Shown: piece after piece, positions 8,750 to 26,913 of the stretch
How the letters are laid out: every line of letters starts with the position of its first letter
Numbering within the stretch: the stretch's first letter is position 1
Origin: Rhodanobacter sp. DHG33
GTDB taxonomy: Bacteria; Pseudomonadota; Gammaproteobacteria; Xanthomonadales; Rhodanobacteraceae
Assembly (NCBI RefSeq): GCF_014843005.1
Contig: NZ_JACYXM010000001.1
Span: forward strand, 558,001 to 622,000
Length of the DNA: 64,000 bases
Direction of reading: 5' to 3'
Notes under the pieces: model-generated
What the model saw: only the letters and a program-made list of their open reading frames with translations
Database searches by the model: none
Told to the model about the DNA's origin: nothing
Program-made: the position numbers and the translations under genes

Positions 8750-10158
8750 GTGCAAAAACTCTCTTCGAAAAAATCTGGGACGCCCACGTAGTCGCGCCCG
8801 AGACCGCCGATACCCCGGCGATCCTCTACATCGACCTGCACCTGGTGCACGAAGTCACCTCGCCGCAGGCCTTCGACGAACTGCGCTCGCGCGGCCTGAA
8901 GCTGCGCCGCACCGATCGCACGCTGGCCACGCTGGACCATTCCACGCCCACCCTGCCCGCCGGCGCCGATGGCGAGCGCCCCTACGCCAACGCCGAAGCC
9001 AAGGCGCAGGTCGCGCAGCTGGAAGTGAACTGCCGCGAGTTCGGCATCGAGCTGCACGGCTGGGACAGCAGCGAGCGCGGCATCGTGCACGTGATCGGTC
9101 CCGAGCTGGGTGCCACGCAGCCGGGCAACACCATCGTCTGCGGCGACAGCCACACCTCCACCCACGGTGCGTTCGGCGCGCTGGCCTTCGGCATCGGCAC
9201 CACCGAAGTCGGCCACGTGATGGCCACGCAGTGCCTGCTGCAGCGCAAGCCGAAGACGCTGGCGATCCACGTCGACGGCGAACTGCCGAAGGGCGTCGGT
9301 GCGAAGGACCTGATCCTGCACATCATCGGCCACATCGGCGTGGACGGCGGCACCGGCCACGTCATCGAGTACCGCGGCGCGGCCATCGAGAAGCTGTCGA
9401 TGGAAGAGCGCATGACCGTGTGCAACATGTCGATCGAGGCCGGCGCGCGCGCGGGTCTGATCGCGCCGGACGAAACCACCTTCGCCTGGCTGCAAGGCCG
9501 TCCGCGCGTGCCGCAGGGCGAAGCATGGGATCGCGCGGTGGCGCACTGGCGCACGCTGAAGACCGACGACGGCGCGCAGTACGACCGCGAGGTGCGCATC
9601 GATGCCGGCACGGTGAAACCCACCGTCACCTACGGCACCCACCCCGGCATGGCCATCGCGATGGACGCACCGGTGCCCGCCGCGCGCAACGCCGTCGAAC
9701 AGCGCGCGCTGGACTACATGCAGAGCCGCGCCGGCCAGCCCATGCAGGGTTCCAAGGTCGACGTGGTGTTCGTCGGCAGCTGCACCAACTCGCGCCTGTC
9801 CGACCTGCGCGAAGCCGCCAGCGTGCTGCGCGGCCGCCGCGTCGCCAGCGGCGTGCGCATGCTGGTGGTGCCGGGCTCCGAAGCGGTGCGCCGTGATGCC
9901 GAAGCCGAAGGTCTGCACGAAGTGTTCCGCGCTGCCGGTGCCGAGTGGCGCATTCCCGGCTGCTCGATGTGCATCGCGATGAACGGCGACCTGGCGCAGC
10001 CTGGCCAGCTGGTCGTCTCCACCTCCAACCGCAACTTCGAAGGCCGCCAGGGCAAGGGCGCACGCACCGTACTGGCCAGCCCCGCCACCGCCGCGGCCTC
10101 TGCCGTCGCCGGCGCGATCGCCGACCCCCGCGAATATCTGACGGAGGTGGCGGCATGA
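8746..10158 (+). CDS. leuC: 3-isopropylmalate dehydratase large subunit
   Basis: LeuC (470 residues, normal length) with LeuD isomerises 2- to 3-isopropylmalate in an aconitase-type reaction. Iron-sulfur ligands are visible in [16 protein letters not shown] and in the closely spaced pair GCSMCIAMN near the C-terminus. The substrate loops [26 protein letters not shown] and TYGTHPGM are typical of the LeuC branch. The start overlaps the ilvE stop by 4 bp. leuD lies 187 bp further on, separated by a pair of repeat hairpins, an unusually long gap for two subunits of one enzyme. Confidence 0.97.
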
Positions 10159-21658: not shown

Positions 21659-21925
21659 CTGGTATAGCCGAGATGCGAGCTGCATCGGCCGAGCACCGAA
21701 CTCGGGCTCCCGAGCAAATAACTCGGCGCTCCGAGAAAAGAACTCGGCGCGCCGAGTCCTACAGCTCGGGCCGCCGAGATAAAAACTCGAAACGCCGAGC
21801 TTTTTGCTCGACGCGCCGAGCAAATTTCTCGGTGTGCCGAGCTCTAAGCCGCACCGGCCGAGAAAAAAGCTCGACGGCCCAGGCTAATTTCCTCACGGGC
21901 CGAGCTGTCAGCTCGGCGGCTGCAG
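21659..21925. repeat. Thirteen near-palindromes at 21-bp period
   Basis: Units of the form CTCGG-N4-CCGAG end at 21672, 21693, 21714, 21735, 21756, 21778, 21799, 21820, 21841, 21862, 21883, 21904 and 21925. Every step is 21 bp except one of 22. The best units (21722-21735, 21743-21756, 21807-21820) are almost perfect 14-bp palindromes; outer and some central ones are degraded. Linkers of 7 bp are A/T-rich (AAAAGAA, ATAAAAA, CTTTTTG, CAAATTT). A period of 21 bp is two helical turns, so all sites face one side of the DNA. It lies between the DUF3147 and DUF6869 genes. Confidence 0.9.
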
Positions 21926-22040
21926 CTCGGAACTCCGCACGTCGGGCTCCGGCGCCCTCGTGGGGACCTATGTGTGCGGCGAACCCCAAGGGGCGATATG
22001 GGACAGTGGCCTATTCGAACCGTAGGTGCATTCGCAGGCC

Positions 22041-22729: not shown

Positions 22730-22959
22730 CGTACTCTCCTGCTCTTGAATTAACTTCAAAACACAGATACGAAACAAGAGACCATAATAGAACTCTCAAG
22801 CAAATTTACTCTAAAATCTATTTTGCCTACAAAATAAAGTCGCATGCCTACAATTCCACCTCATCACTCTGACAGATTTTCTTTTTCCATCCCTTTATGA
22901 TGAAAATCGCCACGGCATAATCGCCGACGGCCGGAGAAAACCCGCAAACCCAAAGCAGC

Positions 22960-22993
22960 GCGGGCCGCATGGGCGGCAACCCATGCGACCCGC
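22960..22993 (+). promoter_or_regulatory. Long hairpin in the 5' region of the 118-residue gene
   Basis: GCGGGCCGCATGGG (22960-22973) pairs with CCCATGCGACCCGC (22980-22993) at 13 of 14 positions, the remaining one being G-U-like. The loop is CGGCAA. No T-tract follows, so it is more likely a stability or translation element, or a repeat, 20 bp ahead of the AGGAG of the next gene. Confidence 0.55.
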
Positions 22994-23023
22994 TGACCAC
23001 AACCAACTTATTAGGAGTTGATC

Positions 23024-23380
23024 ATGGCTAAGCCCGATCATACGTCAGCCGCGCACGACGCTGCGCCCGCCCCCATCAACCCGCTCGCGCGCCCCTACTG
23101 GACTCGCGCCGACGCCGGCCCCGACGAACACGACGCCGCCACCCTGGCCGGCCTCACCATCGCCATCCACGCCCTGGCCCGCGTCCTCACCAACAACGAA
23201 GCCTTCCGCGACTTCCACGCCAACTGCCAAGCCCAAACGCTCGACCCCGGCTGCAGCCCCCTCGACATCGCCACCACCGAAGGCCTCTTCGCCGCGCTGT
23301 ACTTCCTCAGCGAACAAGCCGAACAACTCAGCCAGTTACCCGAGCCCATGCTGATCTGCCCGAGCGACATACCGCCCTGA
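23024..23380 (+). CDS. Hypothetical protein, 118 residues
   Basis: The ATG at 23024 has TTAGGAG six bases ahead; the TTG two codons earlier is unlikely. The N-terminal 40 residues are Ala/Pro/Asp-rich and probably disordered (AAHDAAPAPINPLARPYW). Residues 45-118 are helical (LAGLTIAIHALARVLTNNEAFRDF, EGLFAALYFLSEQAEQL). No signal peptide or known domain is visible. It is the only plus-strand gene in the accessory stretch. TGAGCCCGG/CCGGGCTCA (23378-23386/23407-23415) at its end may be a termination or processing hairpin. Confidence 0.65.
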   Translation: MAKPDHTSAAHDAAPAPINPLARPYWTRADAGPDEHDAATLAGLTIAIHALARVLTNNEAFRDFHANCQAQTLDPGCSPLDIATTEGLFAALYFLSEQAEQLSQLPEPMLICPSDIPP

Positions 23381-23502: not shown

Positions 23503-23532
23503 TATCCTCGGGTCAGTCACTATTTTCAGAAG

Positions 23533-23556
23533 GTCTGCTTTGGGTCGAAAGCGGAC
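23533..23556 (-). repeat. 24-nt hairpin element, copy 1
   Basis: Arms GTCTGCTTT/AAAGCGGAC around GGGTCG, 7 bp downstream of the 285-residue gene. Member of a seven-copy family (23533-26795), always just past a minus-strand stop codon. Confidence 0.85.
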
Positions 23557-23563
23557 AGTTCGT

Positions 23564-24421
23564 CTACGGGTCAACGGCCGCGAGTGCAACCAATGCCGTC
23601 AGGTCACCTTTCACTTCAGGTGATTCTTCGTCAGCGAGTCGTGTAATAGCCGAATTTTTCGACTTTCTGGCTGCTTCCGAACCGAGCCGAGCAATTACTC
23701 TTGCGCTTGCGCTGCGCGTCAGTGAGTTCGCTTCGTAATGCAGGAGTCCGGTCAAATCTTCCAGATGAAGGTATGCATCAGGATGTGTAGCGACCTGTTC
23801 GACAAGCTTGGCGACGATGTCGCGCCTTGCGACTTGTCGCAGGCCAAGTTCCTTTAAACGTCTCAGCAGGTTCTCGAAGGGCTCCGGGCGCTCCGGAACA
23901 ATGTCGGGCACATGAGGTACGTGCCTCAAGATCCATTTGGCGATGCTTGAGGCACGCAGTATGGAGACCAGCGCGAGCGAGATCTGCAGCAGTTCCGTCA
24001 GCATCGTGACTTTGGCGTTCTCAAGCAGCCAGTTGAATGCCGACTTCCCCAGCTCCGGGGAATTGACGAAGGCCTTGAGCCACAAGCCGGCAAATGGGAC
24101 AACCGACTCCTTAAGCCACCACAACCCCATCAATACGCAGCCGATGACGACGAAGTCGAATCGCGTGATGCGCGCATCGCCTTCATCAGTGACGCCAGCA
24201 AGCATTCTCGCTGCTATCCATCCGCTTAGCGCCCATACGATTAGTGCCGCCAAACCAAAAGCTGCTGCCAGCAGCCAACCGAGCCAAGGTGAAGCCCCGT
24301 AGGGATGCATCATGCTCTGTCGCTCGAAGGCAAAGCTTGCCAGGAGAAGCTGTAGCGCGCTCACGCCGAGCCAGATGGCATAGAGTCGAAAGCCCACTGC
24401 GACAATCGATTTTGATTTCAT
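23564..24421 (-). CDS. Unknown inner-membrane protein, 285 residues
   Basis: The N-terminal half has four probable membrane segments (about residues 8-28, 45-70, 90-112 and 130-152). The C-terminal half (about 165-285) is a cytoplasmic helical region with PERPEPFENLLRRLKELGL and LADEESPEVKGDLTALVALA. It is not recognised as a known family. It is the first, most 3'-placed member of the hairpin-punctuated gene array, and a 24-nt element follows its stop by 7 bp. It lies in the lower-GC stretch. Confidence 0.75.
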   Translation of the reverse strand: MKSKSIVAVGFRLYAIWLGVSALQLLLASFAFERQSMMHPYGASPWLGWLLAAAFGLAALIVWALSGWIAARMLAGVTDEGDARITRFDFVVIGCVLMGLWWLKESVVPFAGLWLKAFVNSPELGKSAFNWLLENAKVTMLTELLQISLALVSILRASSIAKWILRHVPHVPDIVPERPEPFENLLRRLKELGLRQVARRDIVAKLVEQVATHPDAYLHLEDLTGLLHYEANSLTRSASARVIARLGSEAARKSKNSAITRLADEESPEVKGDLTALVALAAVDP

Positions 24422-24528
24422 TTGCTGTTCGTTTCCGGGATGGCCGAGCTGACGTTATTGACGATTGCTTGGAATGAGAAGCGAGTCATTGGGTTTGGCG
24501 GATCGGTGTACGCATCCCTGAAGCAGAA

Positions 24529-24552
24529 GTCTGCTATGGGTCGAAAGCAGAC
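24529..24552 (-). repeat. 24-nt hairpin element, copy 2
   Basis: Arms GTCTGCTAT/AAAGCAGAC around GGGTCG, 18 bp after the 254-residue gene. Compared with copy 4, C-to-T in one arm is matched by G-to-A in the other (GTCTGC/GCAGAC versus GTCCGC/GCGGAC), a compensatory pair. Confidence 0.85.
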
Positions 24553-24570
24553 CTCAGGATTCTCAGTCAT

Positions 24571-25335
24571 TCAAGACTGGTCGGCTACAAAGTAAACGAC
24601 ACCCTGGGGCGGTCCGAGGACAGGGGGTGGTGACTTCCAGTCGAACCTTCGACTGGAAACGGCAACTTGGCTTACGTCGAACTTCGGAGAAACAATGAAA
24701 TTTTGCCTCCAGTTGAGTACCAGAACCTCGCCATCCGGTGCCTCGACCACAGTGGGCGCAAAGCCCATACGAATCTCATCGGCTCGTGACGTGGCGGTCC
24801 TTACTTCTAGGTTCAACGCAAATGGGCTCGGCCGGATTTCTTTGATGTCGCTGGCAAGATAGCAATGGCGCCACTCTTCATATGGGGCGTGCTTCTGAAG
24901 TGAGACTATTGCGAGATCAAACGACTCGCCATGAACCGTGGTCACCGCACATGGCGTCTCGACATATTGGCTTCCATTTCCGTAGACATCCGGCGGGGTC
25001 GACCCAATCGCACCGAGAATTGATACCTGCCCTGGGTTCAAAAGAATCGGCTTATCATTCCATCTACTAACAAGTTCTAGACGGTCTGGCGAGACGTAAT
25101 TCATGAAGGCTGGAGAGCCTGATAGATACCAGTGACTTTGACAGGCACGACATTGATAAAGAGTCCCATACCTCAAAGGTGCGGACGACACAAAGACTGA
25201 TAAGTCACGTCGAAACTGCGGGTTAGTCGCCGTCTGCGCGTAGTCCCAATTAAAGCCGAGAGTGCTGCCGGCGCCGCACTGCGGACAGTCGGCGGACCGT
25301 GCCAATCGGCTCGACGAAATCTGCATCATCGACAT
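24571..25335 (-). CDS. Unknown protein with N-terminal zinc-ribbon-like cysteines
   Basis: 254 residues. Two CxxC knuckles (CPQC near residue 18 and CRAC near residue 62) suggest a zinc ribbon; the rest is beta-rich with no recognised motif (FAPTVVEAPDGEVLVLNW, GPPQGVVYFV). AGGAGA five bases before ATG 25335 supports the start. No signal peptide is present. It is the second gene of the hairpin-punctuated array. Confidence 0.7.
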   Translation of the reverse strand: MSMMQISSSRLARSADCPQCGAGSTLGFNWDYAQTATNPQFRRDLSVFVSSAPLRYGTLYQCRACQSHWYLSGSPAFMNYVSPDRLELVSRWNDKPILLNPGQVSILGAIGSTPPDVYGNGSQYVETPCAVTTVHGESFDLAIVSLQKHAPYEEWRHCYLASDIKEIRPSPFALNLEVRTATSRADEIRMGFAPTVVEAPDGEVLVLNWRQNFIVSPKFDVSQVAVSSRRFDWKSPPPVLGPPQGVVYFVADQS

Positions 25336-25386
25336 ACATTCTCCTGTCCCATAGGGGCCTTTCAGTTCTACGCCACACCCTGAAGT

Positions 25387-25410
25387 GTCCGCTTCGGGTC
25401 GGAAGCGGAC
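25387..25410 (-). repeat. 24-nt hairpin element, copy 3
   Basis: Perfect 9-bp arms GTCCGCTTC/GAAGCGGAC around GGGTCG, 3 bp after the 88-residue gene. The stem-top T-A pair of copy 4 is replaced by C-G here, again with both arms changed. Confidence 0.85.
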
Positions 25411-25413
25411 CTT

Positions 25414-25680
25414 CTATTCGCGGCTAATCGCCGCCTCAAAGTACTTGTCTGCGTCGGCTATCGTCTCGACAACGGCGGGTGCTTCCGCAGTGCCCCAGAA
25501 AGGCAGACGCCATTGCGGATCGTGTTCCTTTCTTAGAACGGAAGCTGACAACAGTCCGTCAGCCCGATTCACGACCACTGTTACCAGGTCGAGGTCCGGC
25601 AGGTGGCGCTCGAACAGCACGGAGTCGCCCTGTCGGAGGGACAGGTTCCAGATTCCGCCATACCTTTCTTCCCATGCCAT
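25414..25680 (-). CDS. Hypothetical protein, 88 residues
   Basis: The start at 25680 (MAWEERYGGIWNLSLRQGD) has AAGGGG in front; the longer frame upstream reads through hairpin copy 4 and is not credible. The product is a small soluble protein with a beta-rich N-terminus (DSVLFERHLPDLDLVTVVV) and an acidic helical end (ETIADADKYFEAAI). No known family. Size and context resemble single-gene accessory cassettes. Confidence 0.6.
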   Translation of the reverse strand: MAWEERYGGIWNLSLRQGDSVLFERHLPDLDLVTVVVNRADGLLSASVLRKEHDPQWRLPFWGTAEAPAVVETIADADKYFEAAISRE

Positions 25681-25716
25681 GACACCCCTTGCCCCCTTTG
25701 GGATTCCAGCAGAAAT

Positions 25717-25740
25717 GTCCGCTTTGGGTCGAAAGCGGAC
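25717..25740 (-). repeat. 24-nt hairpin element, copy 4
   Basis: Perfect 9-bp arms GTCCGCTTT/AAAGCGGAC around GGGTCG, 34 bp after the ParB-like gene; it best represents the family consensus. Confidence 0.88.
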
Positions 25741-25774
25741 CTTAACTGGTGCGCCAGACGCGCAGGAAATCAAG

Positions 25775-26131
25775 TTACCAACGCCCGCCATCGCTAAGTA
25801 CGACGGGAATCTGTGGATATCCCCTTTGCGCAGAAGCATAAAAGCGGTGAAACCCGTTCACGACTCTGTACTTATAGGTTGATGTGTACTCGATTGGGGC
25901 CACGACTATAGGTGGCAAAATCCCTTCTGGGTCCATCATGGCCATAAGCACCGGAACCATCTTGTATTTCTTGAAAGGGTCAACACCCTCTCCCCTAACA
26001 GGTGGCTCAATTTCCGATAGTGGAACCGGCTGAGCATTCGAGTTCTGTTCGTAGCAATAGAAGCGGTAGCCGGGCGACACCATCTCAAAGTCGCAAAAGC
26101 TTAGCCATTCCTCGGGAATTGTGTAGCGCAT
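25775..26131 (-). CDS. ParB-N-like single-domain protein
   Basis: About 118 residues from ATG 26131, which has GAGGCGGG in front; an ATG at 26167 would add 12 residues but lacks a ribosome site. The C-terminal half (VPVLMAMMDPEGILPPIVVAPI, YRVVNGFHRFYASAQRGYPQIPVVL) resembles the ParB N-terminal/sulfiredoxin-like fold, in which the GxHR-type turn binds nucleotide. There is no helix-turn-helix, so it is not a partition protein. Similar lone domains occur in accessory gene arrays. Function unknown. Confidence 0.65.
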   Translation of the reverse strand: MRYTIPEEWLSFCDFEMVSPGYRFYCYEQNSNAQPVPLSEIEPPVRGEGVDPFKKYKMVPVLMAMMDPEGILPPIVVAPIEYTSTYKYRVVNGFHRFYASAQRGYPQIPVVLSDGGRW

Positions 26132-26161
26132 TGGCCCGCCTCTGATTTGCCTGACTTGGTT

Positions 26162-26185
26162 GTCCATTAAGGGTTGGAAGAGGAC
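26162..26185 (-). repeat. 24-nt hairpin element, degraded copy
   Basis: GTCCATTAAGGG then TTGGAAGAGGAC aligns base-for-base over 24 nt with the family, including the following CTT shared by copies 3, 4 and 5, but the upper stem is broken. It lies 6 bp after the 77-residue gene. Confidence 0.6.
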
Positions 26186-26191
26186 CTTCCC

Positions 26192-26425
26192 TCAATCGGT
26201 ATTTTCATTGATCAGGCGATCAACGAGCTCAACTCCCCCAACGATGTCCTCGGTGCCCACAAACCGGGAAACCTCCATATGGCCGTCTTCAAATACGTCC
26301 ACATCGACCCGTTCGCCGACCAGGGTTAGCGAGACTAGAACCGAGTCCGGGCGGTGCCTTCCAAGCCTGAAGTAGATCCCTGCAGCCTCCAAGCGGCTCA
26401 GCAGGTCATAGAGCGCATGCGACAC
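26192..26425 (-). CDS. Hypothetical protein, 77 residues (immunity-like)
   Basis: GTG 26425 with AAGGGG six bases ahead starts MSHALYDLLSRLEAAGIYF; the longer frame crosses hairpin copy 5. The remainder, PDSVLVSLTLVGERVDVDVFEDGHMEVSRFVGTEDIVGG, is a compact beta-sheet pattern like small immunity proteins of polymorphic toxins. No toxin is adjacent. The match is by appearance only. Confidence 0.6.
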   Translation of the reverse strand: MSHALYDLLSRLEAAGIYFRLGRHRPDSVLVSLTLVGERVDVDVFEDGHMEVSRFVGTEDIVGGVELVDRLINENTD

Positions 26426-26446
26426 AAGATTCCCCTTGTTTGCGAA

Positions 26447-26470
26447 GTCCGCTTTGGGTCGGTAGCAGAC
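26447..26470 (-). repeat. 24-nt hairpin element, copy 5
   Basis: Left arm GTCCGCTTT is consensus, while the right arm GTAGCAGAC has diverged; loop GGGTCG retained. It lies 1 bp after the 91-residue gene. Confidence 0.75.
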
Positions 26471-26471
26471 C

Positions 26472-26747
26472 TTACGGTTCCGACAGCAGCAGGCCATTTG
26501 CCGCAAGCAAGCACGCCAGAACATAGTGGCCGAACGCCGCTAACTCGTCTTCGGGTAAATCCAGAGAAGATAGCTCCCCGCGTTCGTAATCCTTGAACGT
26601 CACGAAGACCTCGTGTTGCCATGGCCCTGACTCACCAGGCGCAAGATTCCGGACATCGTTCAGCACCACCCGAAGGCGGCCATCAGGCAGCCCCAGCAGG
26701 CTGCAGGTGACGCCACGCTCGCCCCTTTCTTTGTCGCTGCTATCCAT
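26472..26747 (-). CDS. Hypothetical protein, 91 residues
   Basis: AAGGAG five bases before ATG 26747 fixes the start (MDSSDKERGERGVTCSLLGL). The protein has a beta-rich middle (LRVVLNDVRNLAPGESGPW, HEVFVTFKDYERGELSSLDL) and a hydrophobic C-terminal helix (FGHYVLACLLAANGLLL) that is too short and polar for a clear membrane anchor. No known family. Upstream, the frame would extend through hairpin copy 6, which is rejected. Confidence 0.6.
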   Translation of the reverse strand: MDSSDKERGERGVTCSLLGLPDGRLRVVLNDVRNLAPGESGPWQHEVFVTFKDYERGELSSLDLPEDELAAFGHYVLACLLAANGLLLSEP

Positions 26748-26771
26748 GCCGTCTCCTTGTCTATCGCTCAT

Positions 26772-26795
26772 GTCCGCTTCGGGTCGAAAGCGGAC
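26772..26795 (-). repeat. 24-nt hairpin element, copy 6
   Basis: Arms GTCCGCTT/AAGCGGAC around the GGGTCG loop, extended by a flanking T-A pair. It lies 16 bp after the stop of a short hydrophobic ORF and closes the array. Confidence 0.85.
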
Positions 26796-26811
26796 ATTCC
26801 AGACTTGCCGA

Positions 26812-26913
26812 TCATAGAACCGATGAAAGCATGACAACGAGCAGGCCAATGACGGCACCTGCAAGAAGGACCAGGCAGAGCGCCGGTGCGGAAAGGAAGC
26901 CAAAACAAAACAA
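26812..26913 (-). pseudogene. Short hydrophobic ORF or C-terminal remnant of a membrane protein
   Basis: A 33-codon frame from TTG 26913 ends with a strongly hydrophobic segment (LCLVLLAGAVIGLLVVML) typical of a membrane helix. No good ribosome site precedes it, and a stop lies just upstream in frame. A copy of the GCACTC repeat begins about 20 bp upstream. It is either a tiny membrane peptide or what remains of a larger gene cut by the repeat. Hairpin copy 6 follows its stop, as for the other array genes. Confidence 0.35.

Follow-up and report, generated by a model that had tools for sequence, protein, structure and literature searches.

The textbook example in nature of a system keeping single genes as exchangeable cassettes is the integron. 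For integrons, PMC8618304 describes the attC sites as acting in the form of a folded strand. In Xanthomonas, integrons sit downstream of ilvD, as stated in a part of PMC12444791. A different arrangement occurs in Acinetobacter, where genes bounded by two Xer sites are named ‘xrs cassettes’ in a passage of PMC11705084; a work cited there states in its title that pdif modules have inversely oriented flanking sites, and PMC11705084 itself considers it unlikely that a circle is excised between the Xer sites of plasmids. Here we analyse an array of short palindromic elements in Rhodanobacter sp. DHG33 (assembly GCF_014843005.1, contig NZ_JACYXM010000001.1, positions 558,001 to 622,000); this whole stretch of 64,000 nt is referred to as the window. 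Seven copies of the element trail successive minus-strand genes at 23.5–26.8 kb of the window. Judging from comparative sequence analysis, the array is probably a row of mobile gene cassettes, each made of a gene and a directional site of ∼30 bp that would be recombined at or near its centre.

In a repeat search the seven copies formed the biggest repeat family of the window, all in a single orientation. Six of them are well kept and match a 24-nt pattern with no mismatch or one mismatch each (up to three were allowed across the window; 100 shuffles gave no match). The remaining copy, at 26162, is decayed: it has mismatches at 6 of the 24 positions and scores 12.4 bits with a site matrix trained on 151 copies, the window's own copies among them. 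All site-matrix matches of at least 8 bits in the window lie within the array. In the list of open reading frames (ORFs), the stop codons precede the first six copies by 7, 18, 3, 34, 6 and 1 bp; the ORF ahead of the seventh is missing from the list at a length of at least 50 aa and is probably a truncated gene.

On the gene strand, the conserved element derived from 52 copies of the genome is ∼30 nt long and reads AATGTCCGCTTT-CGACCC-AAAGCGGACATT, with 24 nt strongly conserved and three weaker nt on each side. The site consists of 12+6+12 bp, near-identical inverted 12-bp arms flanking a nearly invariant CGACCC. If it acted as a folded strand, as attC, REP elements or RNA hairpins would, a change in one arm should be compensated in the opposite arm. 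Among 316 sites, the Watson-Crick fraction of the paired arms is 0.699 as compared with 0.692 for shuffled arms (P 0.056), and at pair 6/23 the mismatches C.A (56) and T.G (35) far outnumber the compensated T-A (9). Since the arms hardly covary, the site is probably read as a duplex and not as a folded hairpin; the two arms probably hold a common consensus almost independently, like two protein-binding half-sites of duplex DNA. The original prediction, made from the window alone, had described seven co-oriented copies of a 24-nt hairpin behind seven stop codons of minus-strand genes. The copies and their orientation are borne out and the first six distances agree with the ORF list, the seventh having no listed ORF; the element is indeed palindromic, but it is ∼30 nt long and a hairpin function is not evident.

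The genome (G000, 3.76 Mb; window on contig C11) carries the pattern with up to three mismatches at 60 distinct places (61 pattern rows, one palindromic place being found on both strands), with no match for a reversed control pattern. Fifty-three of these places fall in four clusters, on contigs C3 (15), C11 (6), C38 (11) and C41 (21), that occupy 1.6% of the genome, each cluster in a single orientation. At least one copy with up to two mismatches was present in 33 of 99 relatives. Ten or more copies were found in nine of them, all of the same family (G003, G016, G027, G033, G034, G041, G048, G051 and G053), which together with G000 form the array-rich set of ten genomes; most genomes outside this set have from none to two. 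In a sample of the phylum, 32 of 398 genomes carry a copy and none, the own genome aside, exceeds four. A scan of named genomes gave at least 119 stretches, including some from Dyella, Lysobacter, Caulobacter, Sphingomonas, Massilia, Kordiimonadaceae and Nitrospina. We collected 36 array regions from 11 genomes (the array-rich ten and G001), taking a matrix score of at least 24 bits as the threshold for an array site. Of 318 sites, 316 are in the majority orientation of their region, and the two exceptions, both in L080, look like a second adjoining array; the regions were chosen for dense matches, so these counts describe arrays and not every copy. Several co-oriented site clusters also exist in Caulobacter sp. 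17J80-11, a member of another class.

The arrays have a regular composition. Among 229 units of 150–1600 bp, site and longest ORF share a strand in 211 and are on opposite strands in 16; the other two have no ORF. The median distance from the stop codon to the following site is 14 bp, with 158 of 211 distances between −5 and +40 bp, and G+C content is 55% for the units as compared with 66.7% for the window. Pfam was applied to 150 of the 227 ORFs in cassettes and gave 61 families, of which the 25 commonest were inspected; they include alpha/beta hydrolases (4), YCII (3), SUKH-1 immunity proteins (3), glyoxalases (3) and Barstar (2), with no recombinase among these 25. When 1,704 ORFs around the sites were compared all against all, the six largest clusters were, by eye, of LysR, SDR, beta-lactamase-like, two-component, hydrolase and glyoxalase type.

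The evidence for movement comes from an all-against-all comparison of 258 units (80–3500 bp), in which homologous units were found in differing contexts. Sixteen pairs are homologous end to end (alignments of at least 120 bp reaching within 110 bp of the four outer ends), eight of them with at least 88% identity; this filter excludes longer units in which an inner site went undetected, for instance L031:12281 and L035:22275, a pair with 89% identity. In the eight closer pairs, the 20 bp at the start and the 20 bp at the end of the unit differ by 0.081 and 0.056; the 30 bp outside the sites differ by 0.758 and 0.679, random pairs by 0.739. The boundary runs through the sites themselves. The right arm of the left site travels with the unit (5 mismatches in 96 positions vs 31.3 expected from a random-site baseline), as does the left arm of the right site (4/96 vs 25.5); the other arm of that site, its right one, is not shared (27/96 vs 31.0, P 0.20). 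In the closest pairs identity changes over somewhere between positions 11 and 18–19 of 30 (0-based), inside CGACCC or at its right edge.

Some of these units occur in distant places. G016 and G053, genomes of different genera, have two units in common, at 99.0% and 98.7% identity and in reversed relative order; the xerD and xerC regions of the same two genomes are 76–82% identical. A unit of the C3 array of our genome is 97.9% identical to a unit of the C38 array with other neighbours. Shared units in other contexts and in reversed order argue, for these units, against simple vertical descent and against block transfer. The array locus itself varies within the genus. The segment 21576..26972 of the window is missing at the equivalent locus of G013 and G002, where the flanking matches are 13 and 11 bp apart; G008, G007 and G012 likewise have no site at the equivalent locus. 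Six syntenic loci contain no site of 16 bits or more; one of these belongs to G003, which has different DNA there through to the contig end, including an ORF of 1,494 aa. These comparisons lend good support to the movement of single gene-plus-site units at a defined site of duplex type; they establish a layout of one gene and one site, a single orientation, units common to arrays and genera and, approximately, the point of exchange.

In the proposed mechanism a unit would consist of one small gene and one directional recombination site of ∼30 bp. A recombinase would cut and rejoin two sites in the CGACCC centre or at its edge; a unit between two direct repeats would be excised, presumably as a one-site circle, and would then insert at another site. 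The geometry of tyrosine recombinases is a pair of inverted arms separated by a short centre, where exchange takes place. Since our site has two inverted arms, a short centre and, probably, duplex recognition, we infer an enzyme of this type acting in trans, along with the circle.

Several observations weigh against the cassette interpretation. The left arm of the left site shows 14 mismatches in 96 positions vs 25.8 expected (P 0.0005), that is, it differs less than in random pairs, and the switch is therefore less clean on the left side. One of the four closest pairs switches one base outside CGACCC, and two of the four each have one mismatch on the wrong side of the centre, which we take for later substitutions. 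The eight pairs with less than 88% identity give no clear arm signal. For the 258 sites that open units there is a slight surplus of arm pairing (P 0.034). In Caulobacter the genes run mostly counter to the site strand (15 of 21 opposite, six the same), so gene and site have no fixed relation and sites are not universally linked to gene ends. Finally, we found no dedicated recombinase common to the ten array-rich genomes.

The search for such an enzyme covered several families. Serine recombinases (PF00239) have no match in our genome and are present in three of the ten array-rich genomes; for Y1 transposases (PF01797, E 0.001) the numbers are none and four of ten. Each array-rich genome has two strong Xer-type PF00589 matches (20 proteins in 10 genomes), and those of G000 and G016, the two genomes checked, exceed the NCBI cut-offs for XerC and XerD. 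When all 60 PF00589 matches of the ten genomes were clustered (reading frame verified for 59 of 60; the fragment G053:C12 had no ORF), host XerC and XerD were the sole closely related tyrosine recombinases present in all ten. Among the 39 others, no cluster at >30% identity over >150 aa reaches above six of ten genomes; a looser cut (>25%, >120 aa) joins 30 of the 39 in one loose group touching all ten, a grouping that tells us only that these proteins are integrases. Pfam was also run on 36 ORFs, of which 28 came from array regions of Caulobacter; a single integrase was matched, at the same E-value as that of L324.

Three candidates were set aside. A 361-aa tyrosine recombinase (L279:1453-2538) occurs in six of ten array-rich genomes vs 17 of 49 other genomes of the family, fragments counted (Fisher P 0.17), and is not diagnostic. 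The placed candidates nearest to arrays, L324:8096-9052 (∼7 kb away, G034) and L325:11192-11656 (a fragment 0.3 kb from a site, G041), cluster with none of the others at >30%. As a separate observation, the 361-aa protein is sporadic, up to 92% identical across genomes of the family, and has no clear tie to arrays.

Either XerC and XerD act on sites that are not dif-like, or another enzyme does, perhaps one carried transiently. The first option corresponds to an alternative that we regard as possible though rather unlikely, namely, that the host XerC/XerD recombine the sites and the arrays are a chromosomal, head-to-tail form of the mechanism proposed for the xrs/pdif modules of Acinetobacter plasmids. 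The presence of two Xer-type proteins in all ten array-rich genomes, where no other cluster exceeds six, fits this idea, and so does the Xer-like geometry of the site: two arms around an exchange region of ∼6 bp, as judged from conservation and half-site inheritance, with the left arm of the left site less clear. The plasmid modules, too, have two arms around a short centre and no dedicated recombinase adjoining them, the genes between their sites vary among related replicons, and genes bounded in this way already bear the name of cassettes. However, XerC and XerD are near-universal in bacteria and the arrays are confined to few genomes; because the two genes are nearly universal, their presence is not diagnostic. 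The inner bases of the arms, TTT/AAA, look unlike the inner ATAA/TTAT of dif, and the two arms are nearly identical to one another, which suggests one recombinase and not two. The arrays also differ in being chromosomal, with up to 21 detected sites in one orientation and one gene per unit, so that neighbouring sites are direct repeats, whereas the plasmid modules are described as having inversely oriented sites and, in the passage of PMC11705084 noted above, circle excision between such sites is thought unlikely.

It is improbable that the units are integron cassettes, either as a cluster of attC sites lacking an integron integrase (CALIN), with the integrase lost or supplied in trans, or as a decayed or divergent integron. 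Both systems have units of one small gene with its site, strung head to tail in long arrays, and both swap units singly at much the same point of the site; in both, the cargo is low in G+C and made up of unknowns along with immunity-like, glyoxalase and similar genes. The integron integrase IntI occurs in 16 of 37 family genomes tested, and it exceeds the cut-off in two members of the array-rich set, G003 and G041. The differences lie in the site and the enzyme. Here a 30-bp inverted repeat stands in place of the folded attC, arm covariation is scarce and no attI was seen; the RYYYAAC/GTTRRRY end motifs of attC are found at 3 of 316 sites vs 3 of 954 random positions. Our genome has no IntI above the cut-off of 265 (the best TIGR02249 stretch scores 75.9 bits; whole XerC scores 126.9 bits). 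Since CALINs lack IntI by definition, absence of IntI alone does not exclude a CALIN. Among the 37 genomes, IntI is present in one of the seven with at least four sites (G003) vs 15 of 30 others, which is a trend only (Fisher P 0.11). In G048, G051 and G053 there was no strong extra integrase match in the PF00589 scan, the IntI model itself not being applied to them.

True integrons of the same genus provide a direct comparison. In four of six intI loci of the genus (L378, L379, L380 and L382) genuine attC sites of the form GCCTAAC...GTTAGGC, 57–64 nt long, lie beside intI, and none of the six loci contains a 30-bp site of 24 bits or more. As a positive control, end-palindromic attC-like matches on both strands numbered 20 in the 120 kb of the six intI loci vs 22 in 769 kb of array regions. 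With both 30-bp-site arrays and true integrons, the genus therefore carries two different kinds of cassette array. The original prediction had proposed a decayed or different cassette system, with no integrase and no canonical attC ends visible. In the genome as a whole IntI is likewise absent above cut-off, and the sites lack attC ends; a decayed integron is not supported, true integrons of sister species using a different site, and the cassette-like array of a different system is supported by the single units common to arrays and genera with other neighbours and from the lack of the array at the same locus of related genomes. The nearness of the array to ilvD may be incidental, as the other three arrays of the genome are on other contigs.

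Even less likely is a hairpin repeat of the repetitive extragenic palindromic (REP) type, located preferentially at gene ends, spread through a REP-associated tyrosine transposase (RAYT) and having no role in gene movement. Our element resembles REP and REPIN elements as a short palindrome close to stop codons that has similar low-copy sequences in many proteobacteria, with inverted pairs in Lysobacter and direct pairs in Sphingomonas-type genomes. Unlike REP sequences, it is clustered and co-oriented, not dispersed; the concern that it might turn up mostly in random or non-genic places is answered by the 53 of 60 places in four arrays. Single units recur in other places together with their gene, identity changing over within the site; our genome, with its 60 places, lacks a match to Y1 transposases, and only four of the ten array-rich genomes have one.

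That the copies are transcription terminators or RNA-stabilising hairpins ending each gene of an operon is hardly credible: the copies do lie directly past stop codons, and four of five window copies fold, as single-stranded DNA, below all 200 shuffles, but 17 of 200 shuffles equal the fifth, neither strand has a clear T-run (5/318 for the gene strand and 9/318 for the opposite one vs 29/2160 random), the arms show little or no covariation, Rfam gave no match at copies in the scanned stretches, and the Caulobacter site is opposite to most genes.

Related sequences are arranged in other ways elsewhere. In Lysobacter a variant site (GTCCGCTATCGGCCAGAAGCGGAC) lies inverted, 59–60 bp from a standard site, and such pairs recur in the same sense along the contig (6234/6293, 6938/6998 and 7539/7598 in L194; 417/476, 1347/1406 and 5175/5234 in L164); variant and standard site possibly form a composite site. 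Sphingomonas-type genomes have doublets of directly oriented sites 35–37 bp apart (1153/1190 and 5078/5115 in L208; also L157 and L162). Weak matches were found in 54 plasmid and six phage records; the plasmids are mostly from Pantoea, Sinorhizobium and Klebsiella, with at most three places per record among the 40 listed. Given the pairs in Lysobacter and Sphingomonas-type genomes and the weak plasmid matches, there may be a wider palindrome family of which the cassette site is one use. Separately, L145, a 15-kb IMG/VR contig filed as viral, has three good co-oriented sites.

In the window, the sites and genes of the array, all on the minus strand, were located as follows; unless stated otherwise, sites are 30 bp long and were found by repeat and pattern search. 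In the direction of the genes the first site is at 26769..26798 (48.9 bits with the matrix), with the short, probably truncated gene at higher coordinates. It is followed by a gene at 26472..26747, whose start is inferred since the mechanical ORF, to 26903, crosses the next site, and by a site at 26444..26473 (38.4 bits). The next gene, 26192..26425, also has an inferred start (mechanical ORF to 26524, again crossing a site); neither of these two mechanical ORFs has a Pfam family. The decayed site occupies 26159..26188. The gene at 25775..26167 encodes a 130-aa ParB_N-like protein (E 1.5e-5), with 25.4 bits slightly below the Pfam cut-off of 26.3, and ends ahead of the site at 25714..25743 (50.4 bits). 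A gene of ∼88 aa at 25414..25680 has its start inferred at 25680, the mechanical ORF from 25839 crossing a site and having no Pfam family; its site is at 25384..25413 (48.1 bits). The gene at 24571..25335 (254 aa) has a zinc-ribbon match below cut-off (E 0.036) and precedes the site at 24526..24555 (38.1 bits). The last gene, 23564..24421, encodes a 285-aa protein, membrane-like by eye and without a Pfam family, with its stop 7 bp ahead of the last site, 23530..23559 (44.8 bits). Thus none of the six array ORFs has a Pfam match above cut-off, ParB_N of the fourth ORF from the low-coordinate end being narrowly short.

Sites may also be read as protein. The window ORFs 25385-25882 (+) and 26593-26817 (+), as well as L373:8550-8981 and 8993-9259, have the N-terminus MSA(L/S)G(R/G)(K/E)RT, which is the translated site, the outer arm giving the ATG; N-termini of this kind in databases may be artefacts of annotation. 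Near the C11 and C41 arrays there are SymR-like RNA matches, at 22957-23029 of the window (60.8 bits) and at L036:15253-15325 (50.2 bits), the Rfam cut-off being 61. Adjoining the array, a unit of 21 nt, CCGAG(n)CTCGG, occurs at least six times within 21667-21938 of the window, and a stretch akin to these repeats is present at the same locus of the sister genome G003 (L316:141-223).

We found no description of the site in open-licence PubMed Central by title or by the start of the abstract. Neither the exact 24-mer nor any of six 15-mers of the site occurs there, and the 11- and 12-mer matches listed are biomedical and, by title, off-subject. We take the array for a gene-cassette array outside the integron family, with a fair chance that it represents a new kind of system. 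We tentatively suggest a second, integron-independent gene-cassette system, in which chromosomal arrays of single-gene cassettes have their own 30-bp duplex site, cassettes pass from genus to genus, and at least two proteobacterial classes are involved (the Rhodanobacter/Dyella family and Caulobacter), with a recombinase undescribed as a cassette integrase. If this is true, the site would offer a compact site pair for genome engineering and would be a marker for a mobile gene pool invisible to attC-based tools; the cassette strategy would have arisen more than once or would be able to run on housekeeping recombinases.

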